Made by a program: the position numbers and the translations under genes. Positions 1,918-10,714 of a stretch of 11,669 bases of DNA are shown one piece after another. The stretch is from contig CALZJV010000379.1 of the NCBI GenBank assembly GCA_945787595.1, positions 1 through 11,669 of the forward strand, given 5' to 3'. Numbering within the stretch: position 1 is the first letter of the stretch; every line of letters starts with the position of its first letter. This stretch comes from an uncultured Desulfobacterales bacterium. Lineage in GTDB: Bacteria; Desulfobacterota; Desulfobacteria; Desulfobacterales; JAFDCJ01. Below the pieces are notes generated by a model, which was not told where the DNA came from, ran no database searches, and worked only from the letters and a program-made list of their open reading frames with translations.

Positions 1918-1966
1918 GGGTATGGGTTCAGGGTTTAGGGTTCAAGGTTTAAGGTTCAGGGTTATG
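1918..1966. repeat. 7-bp tandem array (GGTTCAG type) abutting the murC start codon
   Basis: Seven consecutive units fall in exact 7-bp register: GGGTATG, GGTTCAG, GGTTTAG, GGTTCAA, GGTTTAA, GGTTCAG, GGTTATG. The array touches the base next to the murC ATG (1915-1917, minus strand). It therefore occupies the place where the murC ribosome-binding site would be. The unit length is not a multiple of three, and the units vary at fixed positions. Confidence 0.85.
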
Positions 1967-1974
1967 GGCAAAAA

Positions 1975-2066
1975 GGGCATAGAGCAAAGGGCATAGCGCA
2001 TATATAAGAATTCGGAAGTCGGAATGCGGAATGCGGAAAAAAAGAATTTGGAATGCGGAAGTCGGA
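1975..2066. repeat. Two further 7-bp arrays (GGGCATA type, then ATGCGGA/AGTCGGA type)
   Basis: Positions 1975-2002 hold GGGCATA, GAGCAAA, GGGCATA, GCGCATA in register. Positions 2010-2037 hold ATTCGGA, AGTCGGA, ATGCGGA, ATGCGGA. After an A-rich break, 2046-2066 hold ATTTGGA, ATGCGGA, AGTCGGA. Both words reappear in inverted orientation downstream: TATGGGC/CATGCCC at 2127-2161 and ATTCCGA/CTTCCGA at 2165-2199. The order is interleaved (1-2-1'-2') rather than nested. Confidence 0.8.
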
Positions 2067-2126
2067 AAAAGGCAAAGCCCACGGAGCCAGGTAACAAGCT
2101 TATTGAAAAATCAGTCTTTTTAACGC

Positions 2127-2241
2127 TATGGGCTCTACTCCATGCCCTCTGCCTATGCTTAATCATTCCGAATTCCGCCTTCCCACTTCCGAATTCCAAT
2201 TTCTGTTTTCTGTCCCCTGATCTCTGTCTTCTGTCATCCGG
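2127..2241. repeat. 7-bp arrays (inverted partners plus TTTCTGT type) abutting the murG stop
   Basis: Units at 2127-2161 are TATGGGC, TCTACTC, CATGCCC, TCTGCCT, ATGCTTA. From 2165 to 2241 eleven units run without losing register: ATTCCGA, ATTCCGC, CTTCCCA, CTTCCGA, ATTCCAA, TTTCTGT, TTTCTGT, CCCCTGA, TCTCTGT, CTTCTGT, CATCCGG. The word changes midway while the 7-bp phase is kept. The array ends two bases before the murG stop codon (2244-2246). The first two groups are the reverse-complement sense of the arrays at 1975-2066. Confidence 0.85.
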
Positions 2242-2243
2242 CA

Positions 2244-3521
2244 TCATGCCGCCAGTAGCCGGTAGCAGTCATCCACGATATTCCTTGCTGCATCCGGCTT
2301 ACCGAACTGCAATGCCTTGGCTGACATATTCTCCAACTCAGCCGGATGGGCAGCATAATACGCTATTTTTTCACTGAGAATTTTGCCGCTGAGGTCCTTT
2401 TCGATGAGCATCTCAGCAGCACCTTCATCCGACAGGCTGCCGGCGTTCAGCACCTGGTGATTGTCGGCTGCAAACGGAAAAGGGATGAAAATAGCCGCTT
2501 TGCCCAGGGCCGTGACTTCTGCAACCGTCGTCGCACCGGCTCTGCAAATAATCAGATCGGCCCGGCCGTACTGTCCGGCCATGTTATCGAAAAAGGCTTG
2601 AACCGTGCCGTCCACCTTGCTTCGCCGGTATGCTTCCCGGACAGGCTGTTCATCCACCTGACCGGTCTGATGAATAAAGTGCAAATGTTCTAAATGTCTG
2701 AGGTGATCCAGAGCCTCGATCACAGCCATGTTAATTCTGTGTGCGCCTTGACTGCCGCCTACGATTAAAACCGTAAAAGGCCTGTCAACAGATTCATCGG
2801 TTTCTGTGTCTTTAAAACGGCCGGCACTATCCAAAATGTCTTGCCGCACCGGATTGCCCGTCCAATGAACTTTTTGGGGATCCATGTGTGAACGGGTATT
2901 TTCAAAGGAAATGTATATTCGATTCGCAAACCGCGATAAGATCCTGTTGGTAATTCCCGGAAGTATATTTTGTTCATGGACGACGATGGGAATCCTCCGC
3001 AGCCAGGCCGCGAAAACCACAGGTCCGGCGGAATAGCTGCCGAGACCGATGGTCAAATCCGGCGAAAAATTTTTTAGAATCCGATTTGCTTCCAAAATTC
3101 CTTTGGGAATTTTTGCGCCTGATTTGACCTGGTTCCACAACCCCAGACCTTTAATGCCGGCGGCTGTTATGGTTTGAAGCGTATAATCCATTCTTGAGAG
3201 CACCGATCTTTCCAGCGGGTTGCCGGTGCTGATAAAAATGATTCGACTCGCGGCATTGCGGGCTTCAAATTCCTGCGCAATCGCAATTCCGGGAAAAAGA
3301 TGGCCACCGGTGCCGCCGCCGGCTATGACGATGTTGAGGGCACGGGACGGATTCCGACATAAATCGCTTCCGTCTTCAGTCCCGACTGCGGGGGCGCCCG
3401 GCACCTCAGCTAAAAGCTGAAAGCTGAAAGCAGAAAACAGAATGGTTTTGATGTCGCTTTTCTGTGAGCTAATCGCTTCTATCTTTGAGCATTCTGTTTG
3501 TGCTGCAGGATTTTCGATCAT
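2244..3521 (-). CDS. murG: MurG, UDP-GlcNAc:lipid I N-acetylglucosaminyltransferase, with a repeat-bearing N-terminal extension
   Basis: MurG transfers GlcNAc from UDP-GlcNAc to lipid I at the inner membrane face, making lipid II. Numbered from the ATG at 3521, the protein shows the glycine loop GGGTGGH (68-74), HEQN (182-185), GGSQGA (255-260) and HQTG (284-287). The donor-site segments CRAGATTVAE (326-335) and FPFAADNHQ (348-356) are also present. The family normally starts a few residues before IVIAGGGTGGH; here about 60 extra residues precede it. No ATG, GTG or TTG stands at the expected place, where a CTC leucine codon is found. The only in-frame starts seen upstream are the ATG at 3521 and a GTG at 3404. 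The extension contains a translated 7-bp repeat array and no recognised domain. ftsW ends 12 bp before the ATG, consistent with operon coupling. The enzyme core looks complete; the true start is uncertain. Confidence 0.94.
   Translation of the reverse strand: MIENPAAQTECSKIEAISSQKSDIKTILFSAFSFQLLAEVPGAPAVGTEDGSDLCRNPSRALNIVIAGGGTGGHLFPGIAIAQEFEARNAASRIIFISTGNPLERSVLSRMDYTLQTITAAGIKGLGLWNQVKSGAKIPKGILEANRILKNFSPDLTIGLGSYSAGPVVFAAWLRRIPIVVHEQNILPGITNRILSRFANRIYISFENTRSHMDPQKVHWTGNPVRQDILDSAGRFKDTETDESVDRPFTVLIVGGSQGAHRINMAVIEALDHLRHLEHLHFIHQTGQVDEQPVREAYRRSKVDGTVQAFFDNMAGQYGRADLIICRAGATTVAEVTALGKAAIFIPFPFAADNHQVLNAGSLSDEGAAEMLIEKDLSGKILSEKIAYYAAHPAELENMSAKALQFGKPDAARNIVDDCYRLLAA
3408..3442. repeat. 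7-bp tandem array (AGCTGAA type) inside the 5' extension of murG
   Basis: Five units in exact register read AGCTAAA, AGCTGAA, AGCTGAA, AGCAGAA, AACAGAA. Nearby, 3367-3387 holds CTTCCGT, CTTCAGT, CCCGACT, another short heptamer run. On the minus strand the array is translated as part of the murG extension (FSAFSFQLLAE). The array lies between ftsW and the conserved MurG start, in the same kind of position as the intergenic arrays. Confidence 0.75.
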
Positions 3522-3533
3522 TAAAAATACCGG

Positions 3534-4667
3534 TTATTTTCGTTGTTTTGGTGTCATATTCAGCGATGCACTTATATTCATTAAGATCCCGATAGATGCC
3601 ATATTCAGCAACAAAGAGGTCCCGCCGTAACTTAAAAAGGGCAGGGTGAGGCCTTTGGTCGGCAGCAGGCCCAGGGCGACCCCCATGTTGATGCAAATTT
3701 GAAGTCCCATGGCCGTGGTCAGCCCTAGTGCCAGCAGTGATCCAAATGCATCGGGCGCATTGCGGGCAATTTGAATGCCTTTCATAAGAATCAGCCCGTA
3801 AAGCCCGATGATAATCAGAACACCTACCAGCCCGACCTCTTCACCGATAATGGAAAAAATAAAATCCGTATGAGGCTCGGGAAGATAAAATAACTTTTGA
3901 TGGCCTTTGCCAATCCCCGCACCCCATAATCCACCCGTGCCGAAGGCCATCAGAGAATGAACGATCTGGTAGCCTTCATCTGTCGGATATTGCCAGGGAT
4001 CGAGGAAACTCAAAATCCTCTTTACCCGGTACTCGGCGTTGATTAAAAAGTAGTAAAACACCGGCAATAAAGCAATCAGCGAGGTGAAAAGATGAAGGCA
4101 GCGAACGCCGCCGACAAACATCATCAGCCAGGTAAGCGCTGCCAGGATGAGAATCGATCCAAAATCCGGCTGTTTAAAAATACAGACGGCAAACGCCCCG
4201 AAGACGAGAACATGGGGCAGAAATCCGATAGAAAACTCCTTTAGTTTGTCTGCCTTTTTTTCCAGTGAATAGGCCAGAAATACCACCATGGCAAAACGCG
4301 CAAATTCGGAGGGCTGAAACGAAAAGTGTCCAAAACGCAGCCATCTGGCCGAACCGCCGGCCGAAAATCCGAAGTCGGTGAATTGAATTGCCATCAAGAA
4401 AAGAAGTGCCAGGGCAAGCAAAGGGTACGTCAACGGTCGATACCATCGATAGGGAAAATGCCGGCAGATGACCAGGCCGATAATTCCCACCAGGGCAAAA
4501 AGCGCCTGTTTTTTTAAAAACAGGTAATCCGAACCGAATTTTTTTAAAGCTAAGGCGGAACTGGCGCTGTAAACCATGACGATTCCGATTCCAACCAGAA
4601 AAAGTACCGGAAACAGCAGCTGAATGTCGTAGGCCGCAGTATGGGTCGTATGCTTTTTAGCACTCAT
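3534..4667 (-). CDS. ftsW: FtsW, septal peptidoglycan glycosyltransferase (SEDS family)
   Basis: FtsW polymerises lipid II into glycan strands at the division septum together with the transpeptidase FtsI. The 377-residue protein is strongly hydrophobic with about ten membrane segments, the usual SEDS layout and length. Family motifs seen include SARWLRFGHFSFQPSEFARF (106-125), KQPDFGS (165-171), FLDPW (221-225) and GYQIVHSLMAFGTGG (232-246). PEPHTDFIF (263-271) carries the conserved Asp268 matching the SEDS catalytic-site Asp, and LPFLSYGGTS lies at 342-351. The start ATG overlaps the murD stop in ATGA (4664-4667), indicating translational coupling. The order murD-ftsW-murG favours FtsW over the paralogue RodA. 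No lesion is seen. Confidence 0.96.
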   Translation of the reverse strand: MSAKKHTTHTAAYDIQLLFPVLFLVGIGIVMVYSASSALALKKFGSDYLFLKKQALFALVGIIGLVICRHFPYRWYRPLTYPLLALALLFLMAIQFTDFGFSAGGSARWLRFGHFSFQPSEFARFAMVVFLAYSLEKKADKLKEFSIGFLPHVLVFGAFAVCIFKQPDFGSILILAALTWLMMFVGGVRCLHLFTSLIALLPVFYYFLINAEYRVKRILSFLDPWQYPTDEGYQIVHSLMAFGTGGLWGAGIGKGHQKLFYLPEPHTDFIFSIIGEEVGLVGVLIIIGLYGLILMKGIQIARNAPDAFGSLLALGLTTAMGLQICINMGVALGLLPTKGLTLPFLSYGGTSLLLNMASIGILMNISASLNMTPKQRK

Positions 4668-5971
4668 GATATTTGCACTTTGAATTTTTCGACAGCATTC
4701 CTGAAATCTTCACCACGATGCGCATAGCTATCGTACATATCAAACACGGTATCTCCCAGAGCGGATTGAATTAGGCCGGCGGCTTTGCCCATGACGATCA
4801 GTTTTTTGGCGTGCCGGGCCAAAACCTCTCTGAGTACCTTAAAATCGCCGCCCTTATCCAGGCCGCCCATGATTAGAACCACCGGTTTTTTAAAACTTTC
4901 GACTGCTCTGATGACGGCATTGACATTGGTCGCCTTGGAGTCATTGAAAAAGTCGACACCGTGTATCGTGTCGATATGTTCCAGTCGATGCGCAGCACCC
5001 TGATACCGGTTCATTGCTTCCTGGACTGTTTGCGGCGATGCACCGGCTGCCAGGGCCGCCAGAGCCGCTGCTGCGGCATTCTCCAGATTGTGACGGCCTA
5101 TCAGCTTAAAGTTGGACAGGTCCAAAAACAACCGGTCGTGGGATGCTAAATGCGCTATAGGCCCTTTATTGTTTGGTTTTTTTGATTCATGAAAGCGAAA
5201 ACGAATCCTTGTTCCATTATTTACAGCGCCTTCTTCCTCGTTATTGAGTGACGCAAAGTATAATTTTGTGCTTTTAAGTGGTTCGGTAAGGGTATGCACC
5301 AAGGGGTCCGAACCGTTTAATACGGCGATGTCACCCGGCTGCTGATTTTTAAAAATCCGGATTTTGGATGCGGCATATGCGTCAAAATTCGGGTATCGAT
5401 CCAGATGATCCGCTGTGATGTTCAACAGCACCCCGATCCTCGGCCTGAAGGTGTCGATGGTGTCCAGCTGAAAGCTGCTGATTTCCGCGACGATGAAATC
5501 CGCCTTTTGCTCTCCATCCGCGTAAGCGATCAGCGGATTGCCGATGTTGCCGCCCACGAAGACATTGAATCCGGAATGCAGCAGCATACGGCCTAAAATT
5601 TCAGTGGTCGTGGTTTTGCCATTGGTACCCGTAACCGCCAAAATGGGCTCTTTGATAAATCGTGATGCCAGTTCTATTTCTCCTATGACCGGTATGCCGT
5701 GTTCCTTGGCCTGCAATACCGGTTCAATCGTGTGGGCGACTCCCGGGCTCAGAACAACAAGATCCGCCTTTTCGAAGGTTTGAGATCTGTGATGGCCCAG
5801 CTCCGTGGCAATGCCCATTTCATGGATTTTCTGTGCTCGGGGCCCCAGCGTCTCCTCGGCGGCCTGGTCGGTTACCATCACCACCGCCCCCCTTTTTTTC
5901 AGAAACCGGGCAACGGCTATTCCGGTTACGCCGAGCCCGACCACGATAATTGTTTTGTTTGCGAGTTCCAT
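4664..5971 (-). CDS. murD: UDP-MurNAc-L-alanine:D-glutamate ligase MurD, with an apparent internal C-terminal deletion
   Basis: MurD adds D-glutamate to UDP-MurNAc-L-Ala with ATP. Visible motifs are the N-terminal Rossmann GLGVTGIAVA (12-21), the ATP loop TGTNGKTTTT (114-123) and EISSFQLD (163-170). NITADHLDR (184-192), NDSKATN (343-349) and MGGLDKG (368-374) follow. The C-terminal domain then jumps from KAAGLIQSALGDTV (396-409) directly to FDMYDSYAHRGEDF (410-423). In the family these two segments are separated by roughly 35-40 residues, including LLSPACASF with a D-Glu-contacting Ser (Ser415 in E. coli). That stretch is missing here without loss of frame. The total of 435 residues hides this, because a polar stretch near 243-272 adds length. 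An active enzyme seems unlikely if the sequence is correct. The start lies 8 bp from element B, and no Shine-Dalgarno is seen. Confidence 0.94.
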   Translation of the reverse strand: MELANKTIIVVGLGVTGIAVARFLKKRGAVVMVTDQAAEETLGPRAQKIHEMGIATELGHHRSQTFEKADLVVLSPGVAHTIEPVLQAKEHGIPVIGEIELASRFIKEPILAVTGTNGKTTTTEILGRMLLHSGFNVFVGGNIGNPLIAYADGEQKADFIVAEISSFQLDTIDTFRPRIGVLLNITADHLDRYPNFDAYAASKIRIFKNQQPGDIAVLNGSDPLVHTLTEPLKSTKLYFASLNNEEEGAVNNGTRIRFRFHESKKPNNKGPIAHLASHDRLFLDLSNFKLIGRHNLENAAAAALAALAAGASPQTVQEAMNRYQGAAHRLEHIDTIHGVDFFNDSKATNVNAVIRAVESFKKPVVLIMGGLDKGGDFKVLREVLARHAKKLIVMGKAAGLIQSALGDTVFDMYDSYAHRGEDFRNAVEKFKVQIS

Positions 5972-5979
5972 GATGAATA

Positions 5980-6248
5980 CTACTTTGTCACATAATCAGA
6001 GCAAAATATTTTATTATTCGAATTTCAAAAGATTGTAATTTTGATTGAGAAAATGAGCTAAAATTAAAAATGAACTAAAATGAGCTAAAATTGTGGTATT
6101 CTATCAATTTTATAAAAAGAGATAGAGCGTAGCGTTTCCTTAATTTTAGGCATTTTAGTCAATTTAGATCATTTTAGGCATTCGTTTATTCCGCTTTATC
6201 AGTCTGTTATAACTAGGGACGGACCCGAAGATAAAAATGACAAAGCAG
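5980..6248 (-). repeat. MITE-like interspersed element, copy B (complete, with terminal inverted repeats)
   Basis: The element is bounded by CTACTTTGTCA (5980-5990) and TGACAAAGCAG (6238-6248), an 11-bp terminal inverted repeat with one mismatch. Its reverse complement matches copy A (320-520) over about 200 bp. The inner layout is arm (6051-6095, units such as AAATGAGCTA), core with TATAAAAAGAGATAGAGCGT (6111-6130), then the inverted arm (6140-6185). It has no ORF. It begins 8 bp upstream of the murD ATG and so supplies the murD leader. Non-autonomous mobility is inferred from copy number, terminal repeats and lack of coding capacity. No clear target-site duplication was identified. Confidence 0.8.
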
Positions 6249-6273
6249 AATTAACTATCCTATATTGTCCAAA

Positions 6274-6333
6274 CCGACCGCCTCGCCCTTGCCGGCAGGA
6301 GGGCAAGACCTGAGCGAGAGCGAAGACGGTCGG
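6274..6333. other. Multi-stem GC-rich hairpin in the murD-mraY gap
   Basis: CCGACCG (6274-6280) pairs with CGGTCGG (6327-6333). Inside, CTCGC (6282-6286) pairs with GCGAG (6314-6318). Alternatively GCCCT (6285-6289) pairs with AGGGC (6300-6304) around the palindrome TGCCGGCA. The block is GC-rich in otherwise AT-rich surroundings. No T-run follows on either strand, so a terminator role is unsupported. It could be a REP-like or cruciform-forming element. It stands alone in this window. Confidence 0.5.
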
Positions 6334-6360
6334 AATTTGGCATTTGATAATCTAAAATAT

Positions 6361-6388
6361 CCATTACTCCATCACTCCATTTCTCCAG
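6361..6388. repeat. 8-bp tandem repeat (CCATTACT type)
   Basis: CCATTACT, CCATCACT, CCATTTCT and a partial CCAG follow each other in 8-bp register, close to the 3' end of mraY. The style resembles the 7-bp arrays elsewhere in the window, but the period is 8. The remaining 6389-6450 shows nothing recognisable. Confidence 0.55.
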
Positions 6389-6450
6389 AAGCCCTGAAGC
6401 ATAAAGCCTAAAAAATATAATTAAGCCGATTCGTGATCTCAGGCATATTG

Positions 6451-7530
6451 CTATCTTAATTTTAAGGTACTCATGGCCAGCAGGGCCAGAGCGATGGCAA
6501 TGATCCAGAAGCGGACAATCACCTTTGGTTCCGGCCAGCCCTTTAATTCAAAGTGATGGTGCAGCGGCGCCATACGAAAAATTCTTTTGCCGTGGGTCAT
6601 TTTGAAAAACCCCACCTGGAAAATCACGGATAAGGCTTCCATGACAAACAGCCCACCGACCAACGCCAGTAAAATTTCCTGTTTGGTAATGACGGCAATG
6701 GTGCCCAAAGATGCACCCAGGGATAGTGAACCCACATCGCCCATGAAGATTTGAGCCGGGTAGGCGTTAAACCACAAAAATCCGAGGCCGGAACCAGCCA
6801 GTGCGCCGCAGAAGATAGCCAATTCTCCACTTCCGATCACATTATTTATTTGCAGGTAATCAGCAATTTTGGCATGGCCGGCCACATAAGCAAAAATCAT
6901 GTAGGTCGACGCTGCAATAATCACCGGGCCGATGGCAAGCCCATCGAGTCCGTCAGTGAGATTAACTGCATTGGACGCCCCCACGATGACAAATGCCGCG
7001 AAAATGACATAACCCCAACCAAAATCCGGCGAGATATTCTTAAAAAACGGTATGGTAACCTGGGTTGAAAAATCCGGACTGATGTATACCAGCAAGCTGG
7101 TAACCAGGGCGACAATCCCCTGCAGTGCCAGTTTTTTGCGCACGGTTAAACCTTTGCTCTGCTTTTTGATTTGCATCAGATAGTCATCGATAAATCCAAT
7201 CGTTCCATTGCCGATGATGACAAACAGCACAATCCATATAAAATAATTGGTTAAATCACTCCAAAGAAGAATGGAAATGGTTATGGATATAATGATCAGC
7301 GTTCCACCCATTGTCGGCGTACCGGCTTTGTCCAGGTGGGTCTTGGGACCGTCATCCCGGATGTATTGACCCACTTGCATGGCGCCTAGTTTGCGGATCA
7401 TCCAGGGCCCCAGGAGAAAGCAGATGAAAAAAGCCGTCAAACTGGCATAAATCGTCCTGAACGTAATGTAACGAAATACGTTAAAGACTGAAAACGTCGT
7501 ATGCAGTGGATATAACAGGTGGTAGAGCAT
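6451..7530 (-). CDS. mraY: Phospho-N-acetylmuramoyl-pentapeptide transferase MraY
   Basis: MraY moves phospho-MurNAc-pentapeptide from UDP onto undecaprenyl phosphate, forming lipid I in the inner membrane. The 359 residues match the family length, with about ten membrane helices. Diagnostic motifs are GTPTMGG (70-76), FIDDY with the Asp pair 115-116, [13 protein letters not shown] (187-199), [10 protein letters not shown] with Asp265 (264-273) and [13 protein letters not shown] with the His triplet 324-326 (320-332). The Lys commonly found after DDY(L/R) is Met119 here, with lysines at 122-123. The gene stands between murF and murD as in typical dcw clusters but is separated from both by repeat-filled gaps of more than 400 bp. 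The ATG at 7530 gives the expected N-terminus; only a weak AAGAAAC precedes it. No truncation is seen. Confidence 0.97.
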
Positions 7531-7589
7531 CGTTTCTTTATTGGTTGTGCTTAATTAAATTTCTAGAAGAACAATTTCTTTCCCTGCAT

Positions 7590-7673
7590 CGGTTATCGGT
7601 TATTGGTTATTAGTTATTGGTTAATAATTATTGGTTAATAGTTATTGGTTAATGGTTATTGGTTAATAGTTAT
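7590..7673. repeat. 7-bp tandem array (TGGTTAT type), 12 units in register
   Basis: Twelve consecutive heptamers run without a register shift: CGGTTAT twice, TGGTTAT, TAGTTAT, TGGTTAA, TAATTAT, TGGTTAA, TAGTTAT, TGGTTAA, TGGTTAT, TGGTTAA, TAGTTAT. Variation falls mainly at unit positions 1-3 and 7. It lies about 60 bp upstream of mraY. A short inverted counterpart (AACAATT, AACGATT) is seen at about 7936-7949, overlapping the murF stop. Confidence 0.9.
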
Positions 7674-7694
7674 TGGATTTTATCGATTTTACTC

Positions 7695-7709
7695 GCGGCT
7701 GGAAGCCGC
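7695..7709. repeat. REP-like palindrome
   Basis: GCGGCT (7695-7700), GGA, AGCCGC (7704-7709) is a perfect 6-bp stem with a 3-nt loop. On the minus strand it reads GTGGGAGCGGCTTCCAGCCG followed by CGA. This strongly resembles bacterial REP elements of the GTGGGAGCGGCTTCAGCCGCGA type, which are mobilised by REP-associated tyrosine transposases. No transposase is in the window. Confidence 0.65.
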
Positions 7710-7738
7710 TCCCACAAATATTATGTACCAAGGTTGAG

Positions 7739-7920
7739 CGGTTCAGGGTTCAACGTTTCGGGTTGAAAAACGCCCAACCAGCTCCTATCAAAGGGATTCA
7801 GCTTTTATGTGTCAATAACGCCTTTTCACCCAATGGGTGAAGTCGAGTGTTCCGGATCTTAATCAGTATAGTAAGCAGTTTCAAACAGATTTAACCTTTG
7901 AACCTTGAACCTGGAACCGA
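7739..7920. repeat. Inverted pair of 7-bp arrays (GGTTCA / GAACCTT) around a core with a perfect hairpin
   Basis: The left arm (7739-7766) is CGGTTCA, GGGTTCA, ACGTTTC, GGGTTGA. The right arm (7893-7920) is AACCTTT, GAACCTT, GAACCTG, GAACCGA, close to the reverse complement of the left arm. The core between them contains TTCACCC-AAT-GGGTGAA (7825-7841), a perfect 7-bp stem with a 3-nt loop. No ORF is present. The left arm shares its word with the array before murC (1918-1966). Confidence 0.75.
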
Positions 7921-7946
7921 CCAGTTTTGGTTGTAACAATTAACGA

Positions 7947-9377
7947 TTAACTTTTTTTCTCTCCCGCCCACTCCTCAAGTTTGCGGACCACTTTTTCCAT
8001 GGCCATTCCGCGGGAACCCTTTACTAGCAGCCAGTCACCGGGTTGCAGCCAATTTTTCAAGTCTTCTACGATTTCATCCTGCCGGCCTTCAAAGGTATCG
8101 GTTGACGGCATGCCCTCATCGTGAGCGCCGGTTCTCACGGCGGCGGCAAACTCACCATATGCGTATAATCGACGAATACCCGAGCGCGCGACCCGGGCAC
8201 CGACTTTGCGATGGAGTGATTGGGCCTGGGCGCCCAGTTCAAGCATATCCCCGATCACAACGACGCCTCTGGCCCCGGCTCGCATTGTATTGAGAGTTGC
8301 AAAGGCGGCTTTCATGGAGTCAGGGTTGGCGTTGTATGTATCGTCGATAAGGTGGATGCCACCGGGCATGTCCCTGATGTTCATCCTGCCGGAAACCGGT
8401 TTGAATGCTTCGAGACCGGTCTTTACGGTTTGGCAAGAAAGACCTAACTGTTGGCCTACGGCCGCTGCCGCCAGTGCATTGGAAACCATAAAACGACCGG
8501 GAGAATTTAAATGGACTGCAATGCTTTCGGCAGCTAAGATCAACGTAAAGGAAATTGTGTGCTTGGTTTCATTGATATCTTCCGCTCTGATCGCCGCTTC
8601 GCGGGACAGCCCGTAAAGGATCACCTCGGCTTTTGTTTTGGAGGCCAATTGAATCACTCGAGGATCATCCGCATTGAGAATGGCTTTGGCGCCGGGTCCG
8701 AGGTTTTTAAGGAGGTCTCCTTTTTCCTGCATGACACCTTCAATGGACCCCAAGCCTTCCAAATGCGCCGGACCGATATTGGTCAGTACACCGATATCCG
8801 GCGAGCATATTTCAGATAATCTTGCTATTTCACCGGGATTGTTCGTGCCCAGTTCCAGGACGGCCCACTGATGGCCGGTTGATAATCCGAGCAGGGTTAT
8901 CGGCAAGCCGATGTCATTGTTAAAATTCCCAACGGCCGTCAGGATATCATACTGACGATCTAGAACCGCGGTGGTCATCCGGCGGGTGGTGGTTTTTCCG
9001 TTGGACCCCGTAATAGCTACCACGGACGCGTTTGACCGCTGACGGTTAAACGCCGCCATGTCCCCCAAGGCTCGGGTGGTATCTTCAACCGCGATACAGA
9101 CGACATCGTTTGTTTTCCATGCTGAAATGGGCATTTGGTTGGCCTTATGGCGATTGATTACAAGGCCACGCACCCCCTGATCGACTATCTTTGAAGTAAA
9201 TGTATGGCCATCATGGACTTCTCCTGTAATGGCCACAAAAACGTCCTCGGCAGAGATGTTACGGGAGTCAATGGAAACCCCTGTGAAGGGACGGCGCAAA
9301 TCACCACATAAAAGCTCACCCTGGGTGGCTTCTATGATTTCTGCGGCTGTCCAGGTTAGGAGATGGCTTTGGGTCAT
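7947..9377 (-). CDS. murF: UDP-MurNAc-tripeptide:D-alanyl-D-alanine ligase MurF
   Basis: MurF joins the D-Ala-D-Ala dipeptide to UDP-MurNAc-tripeptide, completing the cytoplasmic pentapeptide precursor. The 476 residues include the N-terminal MurF fold with SIDSRN (35-40) and DVFVAI (45-50), and the ATP loop TGSNGKTTT (123-131). NFNNDIGLPITLL, ELGTNNPGEIARL and NIGPAHLEGLGS follow, then the C-terminal-domain motif DDTYNANPDSMKAA and the late VKGSRGM. All are characteristic and in the expected order, with normal length, so this is the one Mur ligase here without a lesion. It is 305 bp from murE and 416 bp from mraY, both gaps filled with 7-bp repeat arrays, instead of the tight packing usual in dcw operons. 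The start ATG at 9377 is preceded only by a weak GGACA. Confidence 0.97.
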   Translation of the reverse strand: MTQSHLLTWTAAEIIEATQGELLCGDLRRPFTGVSIDSRNISAEDVFVAITGEVHDGHTFTSKIVDQGVRGLVINRHKANQMPISAWKTNDVVCIAVEDTTRALGDMAAFNRQRSNASVVAITGSNGKTTTRRMTTAVLDRQYDILTAVGNFNNDIGLPITLLGLSTGHQWAVLELGTNNPGEIARLSEICSPDIGVLTNIGPAHLEGLGSIEGVMQEKGDLLKNLGPGAKAILNADDPRVIQLASKTKAEVILYGLSREAAIRAEDINETKHTISFTLILAAESIAVHLNSPGRFMVSNALAAAAVGQQLGLSCQTVKTGLEAFKPVSGRMNIRDMPGGIHLIDDTYNANPDSMKAAFATLNTMRAGARGVVVIGDMLELGAQAQSLHRKVGARVARSGIRRLYAYGEFAAAVRTGAHDEGMPSTDTFEGRQDEIVEDLKNWLQPGDWLLVKGSRGMAMEKVVRKLEEWAGEKKS

Positions 9378-9460
9378 TGATTGTTGTCCGTTATGTGTTA
9401 AATTAAAAGCCGATAAAATTCCTTACATCGTGATTCAACTTCCTAATATGAAACTTCATG

Positions 9461-9623
9461 GAATGACGAATGAAGATTGAAGATTGACGAATTGAGGATG
9501 TCGCTCTCCGAGGCGTAGGCGCTACAACCCTTACGAGCCGGAGGCTTCGCTCTGCTTTTTATAACAAATAAAATAGAAAGAATTCCTTAATTCGACATTC
9601 GTCAATTGACATTCGACATTTGT
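9461..9623. repeat. Inverted-arm heptamer element with a core shared with elements A and B
   Basis: The left arm (9461-9502) reads GAATGAC, GAATGAA, GATTGAA, GATTGAC, GAATTGA, GGATGTC. The right arm (9589-9623) reads AATTCGA, CATTCGT, CAATTGA, CATTCGA, CATTTGT, which is the same word in reverse-complement sense. The core contains GCTTCGCTCTGCTTTTTATA (9544-9563). This resembles GCTACGCTCT...TTTTATA in element A (435-456) and, inverted, TATAAA...AGAGCGTAGC in element B. It fills most of the murE-murF gap and codes for nothing. Confidence 0.8.
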
Positions 9624-9682
9624 CATGCCGAAGTCTCTATTCCGATCAAACTGGTGGCTCCGGCAACTAGCGGCGGCGCTGA

Positions 9683-10714
9683 CTATTGACCACTAATTGC
9701 CTGCAGTGCCTTTGCAGCTTCCACCCGGTCATCAAATGCAACGACGGATGTACCCAGTATCTGATAGGTCTCATGGCCCTTGCCGGCTATCAGTACGGCG
9801 TCCTGCGGCCGGGATGCCAGAATCCCCAGCTCGATGGCACGGCGCCGATCGGGTTCGACCGTGTATCCCTTTCGCTTAAATCCGGTTTTCAGATCAATTG
9901 CCGTATACTCGAGACTGTTGGTCTGTCTGACCCCGGGTAAAATTTGATCGATGATTGCGGCCGGATTCTCCCGGCGGGGATTGTCGGAAGTGACGATTGA
10001 CAGATCGCACAGCCGCGCGGCAATCTCCCCCATCAAGGGACGCTTTTCTTTGTCCCGGTCGCCGCCGCATCCAAAAACACAGATGATCCGGGCCGGTGCA
10101 ATCTCCTTTAAGGCCGACAAGGCGTTTTCCAGAGCATCCGGTGTATGCGCATAGTCCACATAAACAAATCGTCCGGTACTGTTATTTATGGTTTCAAGTC
10201 GACCGGGAATGGCAGTCAATGCTTCAATCCCGGCTTTAATCATATCTGACGCAATGTTCAGGGCGGTTGCGACACCCGTGGCCGTGAGAATATTTTCGAC
10301 GTTGTGTACCCCCACGAGGGGAGTTTTGAATATAAAACTCCCCCCGGGGGCGGCAACCTTCCCATCGGTGCCATCTAAATTACATCGGATATTTTCAGAC
10401 CTTATTTCGCAATCAGGAGACGATCCTGTTCTAACTAAAGGCATCGGCAGCGAATCCGCCAGTTTTTGGCCCCTAGCATCGTCGCAATTGATGACAGCCG
10501 AGGCATTTTCTTTCTTCGGGCCTCTCGTCAGATACTCGGTGAACAATCTTTTTTTACTGGACCAGTATGATTGCATGTCGCCATGAAAGTCGAGATGGTC
10601 CTGGCTCAAATTCGTAAAGGCGGCCACGTCAAACCAGCAGTTTTTAATACGCCATAGATCGATGGCATGCGAAGAGGCTTCCGCTACCACATGGGTGACG
10701 CCATCAGACTGCAT
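9683..10714 (-). CDS. murE: MurE, central and C-terminal domains (downstream part of the frameshifted gene)
   Basis: This frame carries the rest of UDP-MurNAc-tripeptide synthetase MurE. Numbered from the ATG at 10714, it shows AEASSHAIDL (11-20), NLSQDHLDFHG (35-45) with the nearby SKKRLF segment, and VDYAHTPDAL (186-195). FGCGGDRDKEKRPLMGEIA (214-232), DNPRREN (244-250) and GKGHE (311-315) follow. DNPR marks enzymes that add meso-diaminopimelate rather than lysine. The reading frame extends upstream of the ATG as RILSE, matching the usual family segment, so the ATG at 10714 is an internal methionine and not a native start. The true gene starts at 11297 in another frame. The ATP loop is absent from this part, so it could not be active alone. 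It ends at a TAG next to the 305-bp repeat-filled gap before murF. Confidence 0.93.
   Translation of the reverse strand: MQSDGVTHVVAEASSHAIDLWRIKNCWFDVAAFTNLSQDHLDFHGDMQSYWSSKKRLFTEYLTRGPKKENASAVINCDDARGQKLADSLPMPLVRTGSSPDCEIRSENIRCNLDGTDGKVAAPGGSFIFKTPLVGVHNVENILTATGVATALNIASDMIKAGIEALTAIPGRLETINNSTGRFVYVDYAHTPDALENALSALKEIAPARIICVFGCGGDRDKEKRPLMGEIAARLCDLSIVTSDNPRRENPAAIIDQILPGVRQTNSLEYTAIDLKTGFKRKGYTVEPDRRRAIELGILASRPQDAVLIAGKGHETYQILGTSVVAFDDRVEAAKALQAISGQ

Follow-up and report, generated by a model that had tools for sequence, protein, structure and literature searches.

Most of the period-7 arrays in the window are, with a probability that we put at roughly 0.8, arms or pieces of composite arms of several dispersed, MITE-like palindromic families, and their units change within the arrays. 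The window, meaning the whole stretch of 11,669 nucleotides that was analysed, is a dcw cluster on the minus strand, with murC, murG, ftsW, murD, mraY, murF, murE and the end of an ftsI-like gene. No NCBIfam model fitted the ORF at 1-288; from its position in the cluster, our guess is that it is ftsQ. The top matches of the window's MraY came from Desulfobacterales MAGs, and one genome, G173, is near the window's organism (MraY 95%, gene blocks 77-88% at the nucleotide level). The genomes compared were mostly MAGs, so single hits could be mis-binned, and the relatives' genes were called by a crude longest-ORF rule.

The initial annotation had named ten arrays in strict 7-bp register, and the register held for all ten, each standing above shuffled or random sequence; the coding DNA has no such register. 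Autocorrelation of the pooled window gaps gave z = 14.1 at lag 7, 9.0 at lag 14, 5.9 at lag 21 and 6.6 at lag 28; the coding DNA of the window gave z = -0.8 at lag 7. The gaps held 7 lag-7 segments, whereas 300 dinucleotide shuffles gave 0.02 on average and never more than 1. For nine of the ten arrays the lag-7 identity was reached in 0 of 5,000 random placements, and the weakest, 7739-7766, had p = 0.0026 by random placement. Lag-7 identity across the ten ranged from 0.56 to 0.89, so the units are not near-identical as those of long SSRs are.

The arrays had been said to occur in nearly every gap of the operon. They occupy four of six; the gaps at 289-540 (z = -0.1) and 5972-6450 (z = 1.5) are the exceptions. 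These two gaps carry another element, with TTTTAGTTCA-like units spaced 9-10 bp instead of 7, present as two inverted copies of a unit of ~200 bp whose core holds CGCTACGCTCTATC. The TTTTAGTTCA-type unit has relatives in G005 (75% over 103 nt), and the ftsQ-murC gap of G173, 35 bp against 271 in the window, is without this TTTTAG element of 289-540. One array of the 7-bp kind shares a frame with murG:

3408-3442, plus strand: AGCTGAA array, inside an open frame continuous with murG (ORF 2244-3521)

Because of that frame the array may be translated. It had no dispersed relative in the G001 and G005 samples (2.0 Mb). The murG-ftsW gap of the window aligns gap-free with that of G204 and differs from that of G173 by 81 bp, which is no multiple of 7.

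Between murC and murG (1918-2243) the arrays form a composite:

1918-1966, plus strand: GGTTYAR array, outer left word of the composite, with 6 units (9 at the orthologous place in G173)
1975-2002, plus strand: GGGCATA array, shorter by 14 bp in G204 and G173
2010-2066, plus strand: GGAATGC/GGAAGTC array, shorter by 22 bp in G204 and absent in G173
2067-2160, no strand: composite core, found also in G204 and in a copy at G173:C127
2127-2158: inverted partner of the GGGCATA array, inside the composite core
2161-2200, minus strand: TTCCGAA array, inverted partner of 2010-2066, within a 126-bp segment whose length is unchanged in G204
2201-2241, minus strand: array of a TCTGTC word, 70 bp (10 units) longer in G204

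The stretch 2127-2241, originally taken as a single array, proved to be three. Successive segments of the gap measure 48/55/69, 32/18/18, 23/23/-, 54/32/-, 126/126/- and 48/118/- bp in the three sister species compared (window, G204 and G173), and differ, in that order, by 7, 14 and 21; 14; 0; 22; 0; and 70 bp. The inner composite is missing from G173, so only two of the comparisons come from that genome. All length changes fall in arrays and all but the one of 22 bp are multiples of 7, the whole-unit length change of long SSRs; the constant 126-bp segment also contains an array (TTCCGAA). The comparison of orthologous gaps that had been proposed for detecting 7-bp steps was thus largely positive. 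A process that measures length had also been proposed: the 7-bp steps fit slippage or misaligned exchange of units, whereas the differences of 22 bp here and 81 bp in the murG-ftsW gap are not multiples of 7.

The word order of the composite is repeated at an unrelated locus of G005 (70% over 119 nt). Core-bearing relatives stand in G173, one with 81% identity over 189 nt plus two more, in a search that scored 40 candidates per genome and so gives lower bounds. A nested perfect hairpin for 1918-2243 was rejected, as the right-hand partners are not in nested order.

The mraY-murF gap holds an array beside a palindrome, and a dispersed unit:

7590-7677, plus strand: GGTTATT array, adjoining the REP-like palindrome
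7694-7716, no strand: REP-like palindrome CGCGGCTGGAAGCCGCTCCCACA
7727-7931, no strand, 205 bp: element E, MITE-like, with GGTTCAG arms and dispersed relatives; the orthologous gap of G173 lacks it
7739-7766, plus strand: left heptameric arm of element E
7893-7920, minus strand: right heptameric arm of element E; 3 of 9 aligned copies have 7 bp more here

The GGTTATT array and its REP-like neighbour recur in reversed orientation between mraY and murF of G005, followed there by an inverted AATAACC array. Element E is abundant in G173, where 30 of the 40 scored matches to 7545-7945 span 150 or more of the 205 bases of the element and are 69-83% identical; with 40 candidates scored per genome, 30 is a lower bound. 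Further relatives were found in G204, G153, G083, G178, G216 and G001, one copy in G216 being without the core. An alignment of nine copies showed core and arms in common and flanks that are unrelated except for one 38-nt match. The corresponding gap of G173 has 121 bp between matching flanks against 425 in the window, and lacks element E. The element E region (7720-7940) had no match in the plasmid collection, nor did a 22-base exact pattern of its arm in the viral contigs.

The murF-murE gap gave a clean comparison of an occupied and an empty site:

9402-9692, no strand, ~291 bp: insert that holds element F, absent between murF and murE of G173
9458-9628, no strand: element F, the part common to dispersed copies, 94% identical to G173:C292 and 90% to G204:C114
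9461-9502, plus strand: left GAATGAC/GATTGAA arm of element F
9589-9623, minus strand: right ATTCGAC/ATTGACA arm of element F
9506-9543, no strand: segment inside F, missing from several F relatives (whose matches split at query 51/90) and alone in others

Judging from the split matches, 9506-9543 is a probable nested REP-like insert. Copies of element F are 94% and 90% identical in G173 and 90% and 89% in G204 (two candidates scored per genome, so lower bounds). The empty murF-murE site of G173 is clean, while two F sites stand elsewhere in the same genome. The insert starts at the murE stop codon (9683-9692), and the window's MurE, as read from the sequence, would end two residues after that of G173.

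A different word had been assigned to each array. Several words are indeed present, but there are about seven for twelve arrays, and inverted partners share a word. The reduction follows from four inverted partnerships: 1975 with 2127-2158, 2010 with 2161-2200, 7739 with 7893 and 9461 with 9589. In this way eight of the twelve window arrays belong to same-word inverted pairs around unrelated cores; an automatic pair test flagged one of three pairs in the window. The GGTTCAG word of the inverted arms at 7739 and 7893 is also that of array 1918. A single consensus family for all arrays is ruled out by the several words, and wholly different words are ruled out by the same-word inverted partners and by a lexicon common to the genomes. 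Heptanucleotide STRRs of cyanobacteria are intergenic 7-bp tandem units that use few words. The window's arrays resemble them as 7-bp tandem intergenic units; with about seven words in the window and a wider lexicon in relatives, they do not follow one or a few consensus words. STRRs are not known to have inverted arms.

Same-word inverted pairing extends to the relatives. Neighbouring array pairs were inverted in 11 of 30 cases and direct in none in a first sample, and inverted in 20 of 43 and direct in 5 in G005; both counts took arrays lying more than half outside simple ORF calls. A pooled sample, which took all arrays and pairs up to 250 bp and overlaps with the other two, gave 45 inverted and 12 direct pairs of 109, with ~5.5 expected of each, so that direct same-word pairs are likewise above expectation. 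A detected inverted partner within 400 bp was found for 38 of the 148 noncoding arrays of G005; many arrays may therefore stand alone or have lost their partner.

The initial annotation had also suggested testing the unit words against a shuffled background. Set against a column-permuted null, the best word matches from genome to genome came out ahead for 64 of 68, 58 of 60, 117 of 145 and 49 of 60 arrays, pointing to a shared lexicon. For the window's own twelve arrays against three libraries, 14 of 36 tests reached p <= 0.05 (40 permutations each), which makes the window test, taken alone, moderate.

The genomes of relatives were used for a genome-scale lag analysis, and the lag-7 excess expected beyond the window was seen in the sampled relatives G005, G001 and G273, with lag 8 second. 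The 1.0 Mb of G005 held 106 lag-7 segments (97 noncoding) against 28 at lag 8 and 3 at lag 6; G001 (0.8 Mb) held 32, all noncoding, against 14 at lag 8; and G273 (229 kb) held 53, against 23 at lag 8 and 0 at lag 6. The bulk autocorrelation effect is small: 0.302 at lag 7 in noncoding G005, against 0.283 at lag 6 and 0.286 at lag 8, and 0.285 in G001, against 0.279 and 0.280. In G273, the locus L228 18841-19434 carries lag-7 arrays of 359 and 212 bp, whose slight decay suggests that they expanded recently. Divergent gaps held fewer arrays per kb than the other gaps, 0.41 against 1.02 and 0.98 in G005 and 0.04 against 0.40 and 0.51 in G001.

This depletion would suit arms selected as RNA stems, whether as REP-like mRNA stabilisers or terminators, or as sites of a protein that reads 7-bp steps. 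The predicted stems are long, in several cases interrupted at about unit spacing, and in 35 of the 42 inverted pairs that have a skew the G-rich strand is the one pointing to the core (p = 1.5e-5, with copies that are not independent), both in keeping with such selection; Rfam gave 0 matches at gathering score. We nevertheless consider selection of this kind very improbable as the explanation, since sister species differ by as many as 10 units, each change affects a single arm, the gaps of a sister lack whole elements, and 8-bp and 9-10-bp families exist too. The one-armed changes are seen in the alignments of paralogues of elements A and E, and mean that the two arms are not kept in step.

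The reading as dispersed MITE-like families draws on further elements in the relatives. Nine of 22 paired elements of G001 and G005 had another match of at least 60 nt in the 2.0 Mb sampled; 13 had none. Element A had 43 matches in G005 and one in G001; 7 of the G005 sites, counting that of the query, align over 126 or more of its 156 bases. Element B matched 22 times in G005 and 13 times in G001, and some of these matches are the two strands of a single site. Element D, whose arms consist of AAATCCG units, occurs in at least 12 of the 22 genomes of G273's genus (17 candidates scored per genome, so counts are lower bounds). At one orthologous place in 11 relatives of G273, the element is present in 2, there are 2-39 bp instead of ~280 bp in 8, and G256 has 189 bp of other sequence. 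The alignments comprised 17 of the 43 G005 matches for A, 17 of 35 for B, 18 rows for D and 9 for E. On a broader scale, (GGTTCAN)3 occurs in 94 of 291 genomes of the order and its backward control in 4 of 291, one of which (G152) has many matches; on the MITE-like reading the recurrence would reflect inheritance and spread of element families, or possibly convergence.

These elements have several features of MITEs. They are short (~100-290 bp) and without a transposase gene, their inverted ends are heptameric and imperfect, they have many dispersed copies with unrelated flanks, and D, E and F are present or absent at orthologous sites. They are longer than the 20-40 bp palindromes with a GTAG/CGTC tag of REPs and BIMEs, and their arms are periodic. 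No clear target duplication was seen by eye in the D and E copies and the G173 gaps, the copies being 6-30% diverged, and no autonomous element or transposase was found in the 28 regions (20 + 8) examined. The conserved period had originally been attributed to a mechanism acting on length rather than to copying of one element. This is not supported for most window arrays, which sit in units with dispersed, core-bearing relatives, one of them with an empty orthologous site in a sister species.

The same evidence bears on whether these are plain heptanucleotide SSRs, each array having arisen in place by slippage favouring 7-nt steps, with no mobile element. Heptanucleotides were the commonest long repeats in most genomes of one study, for which a polymerase explanation has been given (Mrazek et al. 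2007, as cited in the part of PMC4679880 available to us). The orthologous arrays that differ mostly by multiples of 7 and the near-perfect long arrays of G273 would be expected of such SSRs. As the sole cause they are improbable, given the common cores, the dispersed copies, the empty site and the inverted pairing of arrays.

On the MITE-like reading, small non-coding palindromic elements with heptameric arms would be copied into new gaps, by transposition or another copying route, bringing different words with them, and their families would be scattered over the genomes of Desulfobacterales. The heptamer word, or the ordered series of words, differs from family to family, which is why the words change from gap to gap. 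The different word in each gap is then largely a different MITE-like family in each gap, and the breadth of words in one operon, thought unusual in the initial annotation, stands at about seven words and comes mainly from several element families in successive gaps. Unit number most likely rises and falls, mostly by 7 bp, through replication slippage or misaligned repair, perhaps aided by the hairpin; point mutation would blur the units, while gain and loss of units by seven would help to keep the register. The elements may be passive or have a REP-like effect on mRNA.

Families with unrelated cores and words have in common inverted arms assembled from modules of ~7 nt (in a few cases 8 or 9-10 nt), usually with the G-rich strand inward. 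We entertain, as a rather unlikely possibility, that this convergence comes from common mobilising machinery that reads spacing and fold instead of sequence, or from a generator of new families and words that combines slippage with fold-back copying. Stepwise change of the word along an array that keeps its strict 7-bp register, the trace expected of the latter, is seen at L018 15447-15572, L020 1240-1294 and L041 33-107.

Reports since 2007 describe bacterial intergenic DNA as enriched in heptamers and ascribe this to polymerase slippage (via PMC4679880 and PMC4692102, as far as their accessible text goes). A close parallel is with the GGGAATC / GGGGAYT heptamers of Xanthomonas and Nostoc, which form degenerate intergenic arrays (Rehm et al. 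2015, PMC4692102). In Xanthomonas, the accessible part of that paper gives 70 and 75 cases of two nearby sites on opposite strands, convergent, few sites in divergent gaps, and lengths that differ between two species (PMC4692102). Our arrays are likewise degenerate and intergenic, form inverted pairs, are scarce in divergent gaps and differ in length between species. In that account, as available, each genome group has one word family and the emphasis is on G-quadruplexes (PMC4692102). Here there are several words and composite arms, the cores are dispersed and sites can be empty.

TAACTGA direct repeats of Beggiatoaceae, some Cyanobacteria and Bacteroidetes are intergenic 7-bp tandems at many genome sites, as are ours (MacGregor 2015, PMC4679880). 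As described in the available portion of that report, they have one favoured word, related heptamers are rarely repeated, and most lie shortly before start codons. Bacterial MITEs, like the units described here, are small dispersed elements of intergenic DNA whose ends are inverted, and one of them, BrickBuilt of Porphyromonas gingivalis, contains an internal tandem array, a 23-bp minisatellite (Klein et al. 2015, PMC4596501). BrickBuilt is, in the part of the paper available, one family whose units measure 23 bp; in our elements 7-bp arrays make up the inverted arms themselves, and there are several families. REPs and BIMEs are also intergenic palindromes that are rarer between divergent genes, and the window has a REP-like palindrome at 7694-7716 (Di Nocera et al. 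2013, PMC3733652). As treated in the accessible text, REPs are tagged palindromes of 20-40 bp without 7-bp arrays, unlike the heptamer-armed units (PMC3733652).

Heptamer excess, inverted heptamer pairs (in Xanthomonas) and MITEs are thus already published; what is new is the combination of several heptamer-armed families with empty sites. Such elements in Desulfobacterales are unnamed in the open-access literature searched, which does not show them to be unpublished. A good part of the heptamer excess in this one bacterial order sits in the arms of dispersed palindromic elements, and unit steps, mostly of seven, are visible between sister species. This joins the literature on long simple repeats to that on MITEs and REPs and gives loci for testing a 7-nt slippage step. 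A common period without a common word need not mean independent origin.

The murD-mraY gap carries three different repeat units in the window, G173 and G204. G204 (L329) has inverted arms of 8-bp TGGAATNN units there, an 8-bp counterpart of the heptameric arms. The 90-bp noncoding stretch before mraY at 6254-6343 shares 90% identity with G173 and 76-86% with other relatives, conserved above the remainder of this gap. In the coding DNA, murE appears as two overlapping frames at 10704-10714, and the murC frame ends at 649, yet its DNA match to G173 extends to 563. The split in murE and the early stop in murC (~650) are frameshifts or sequencing errors.
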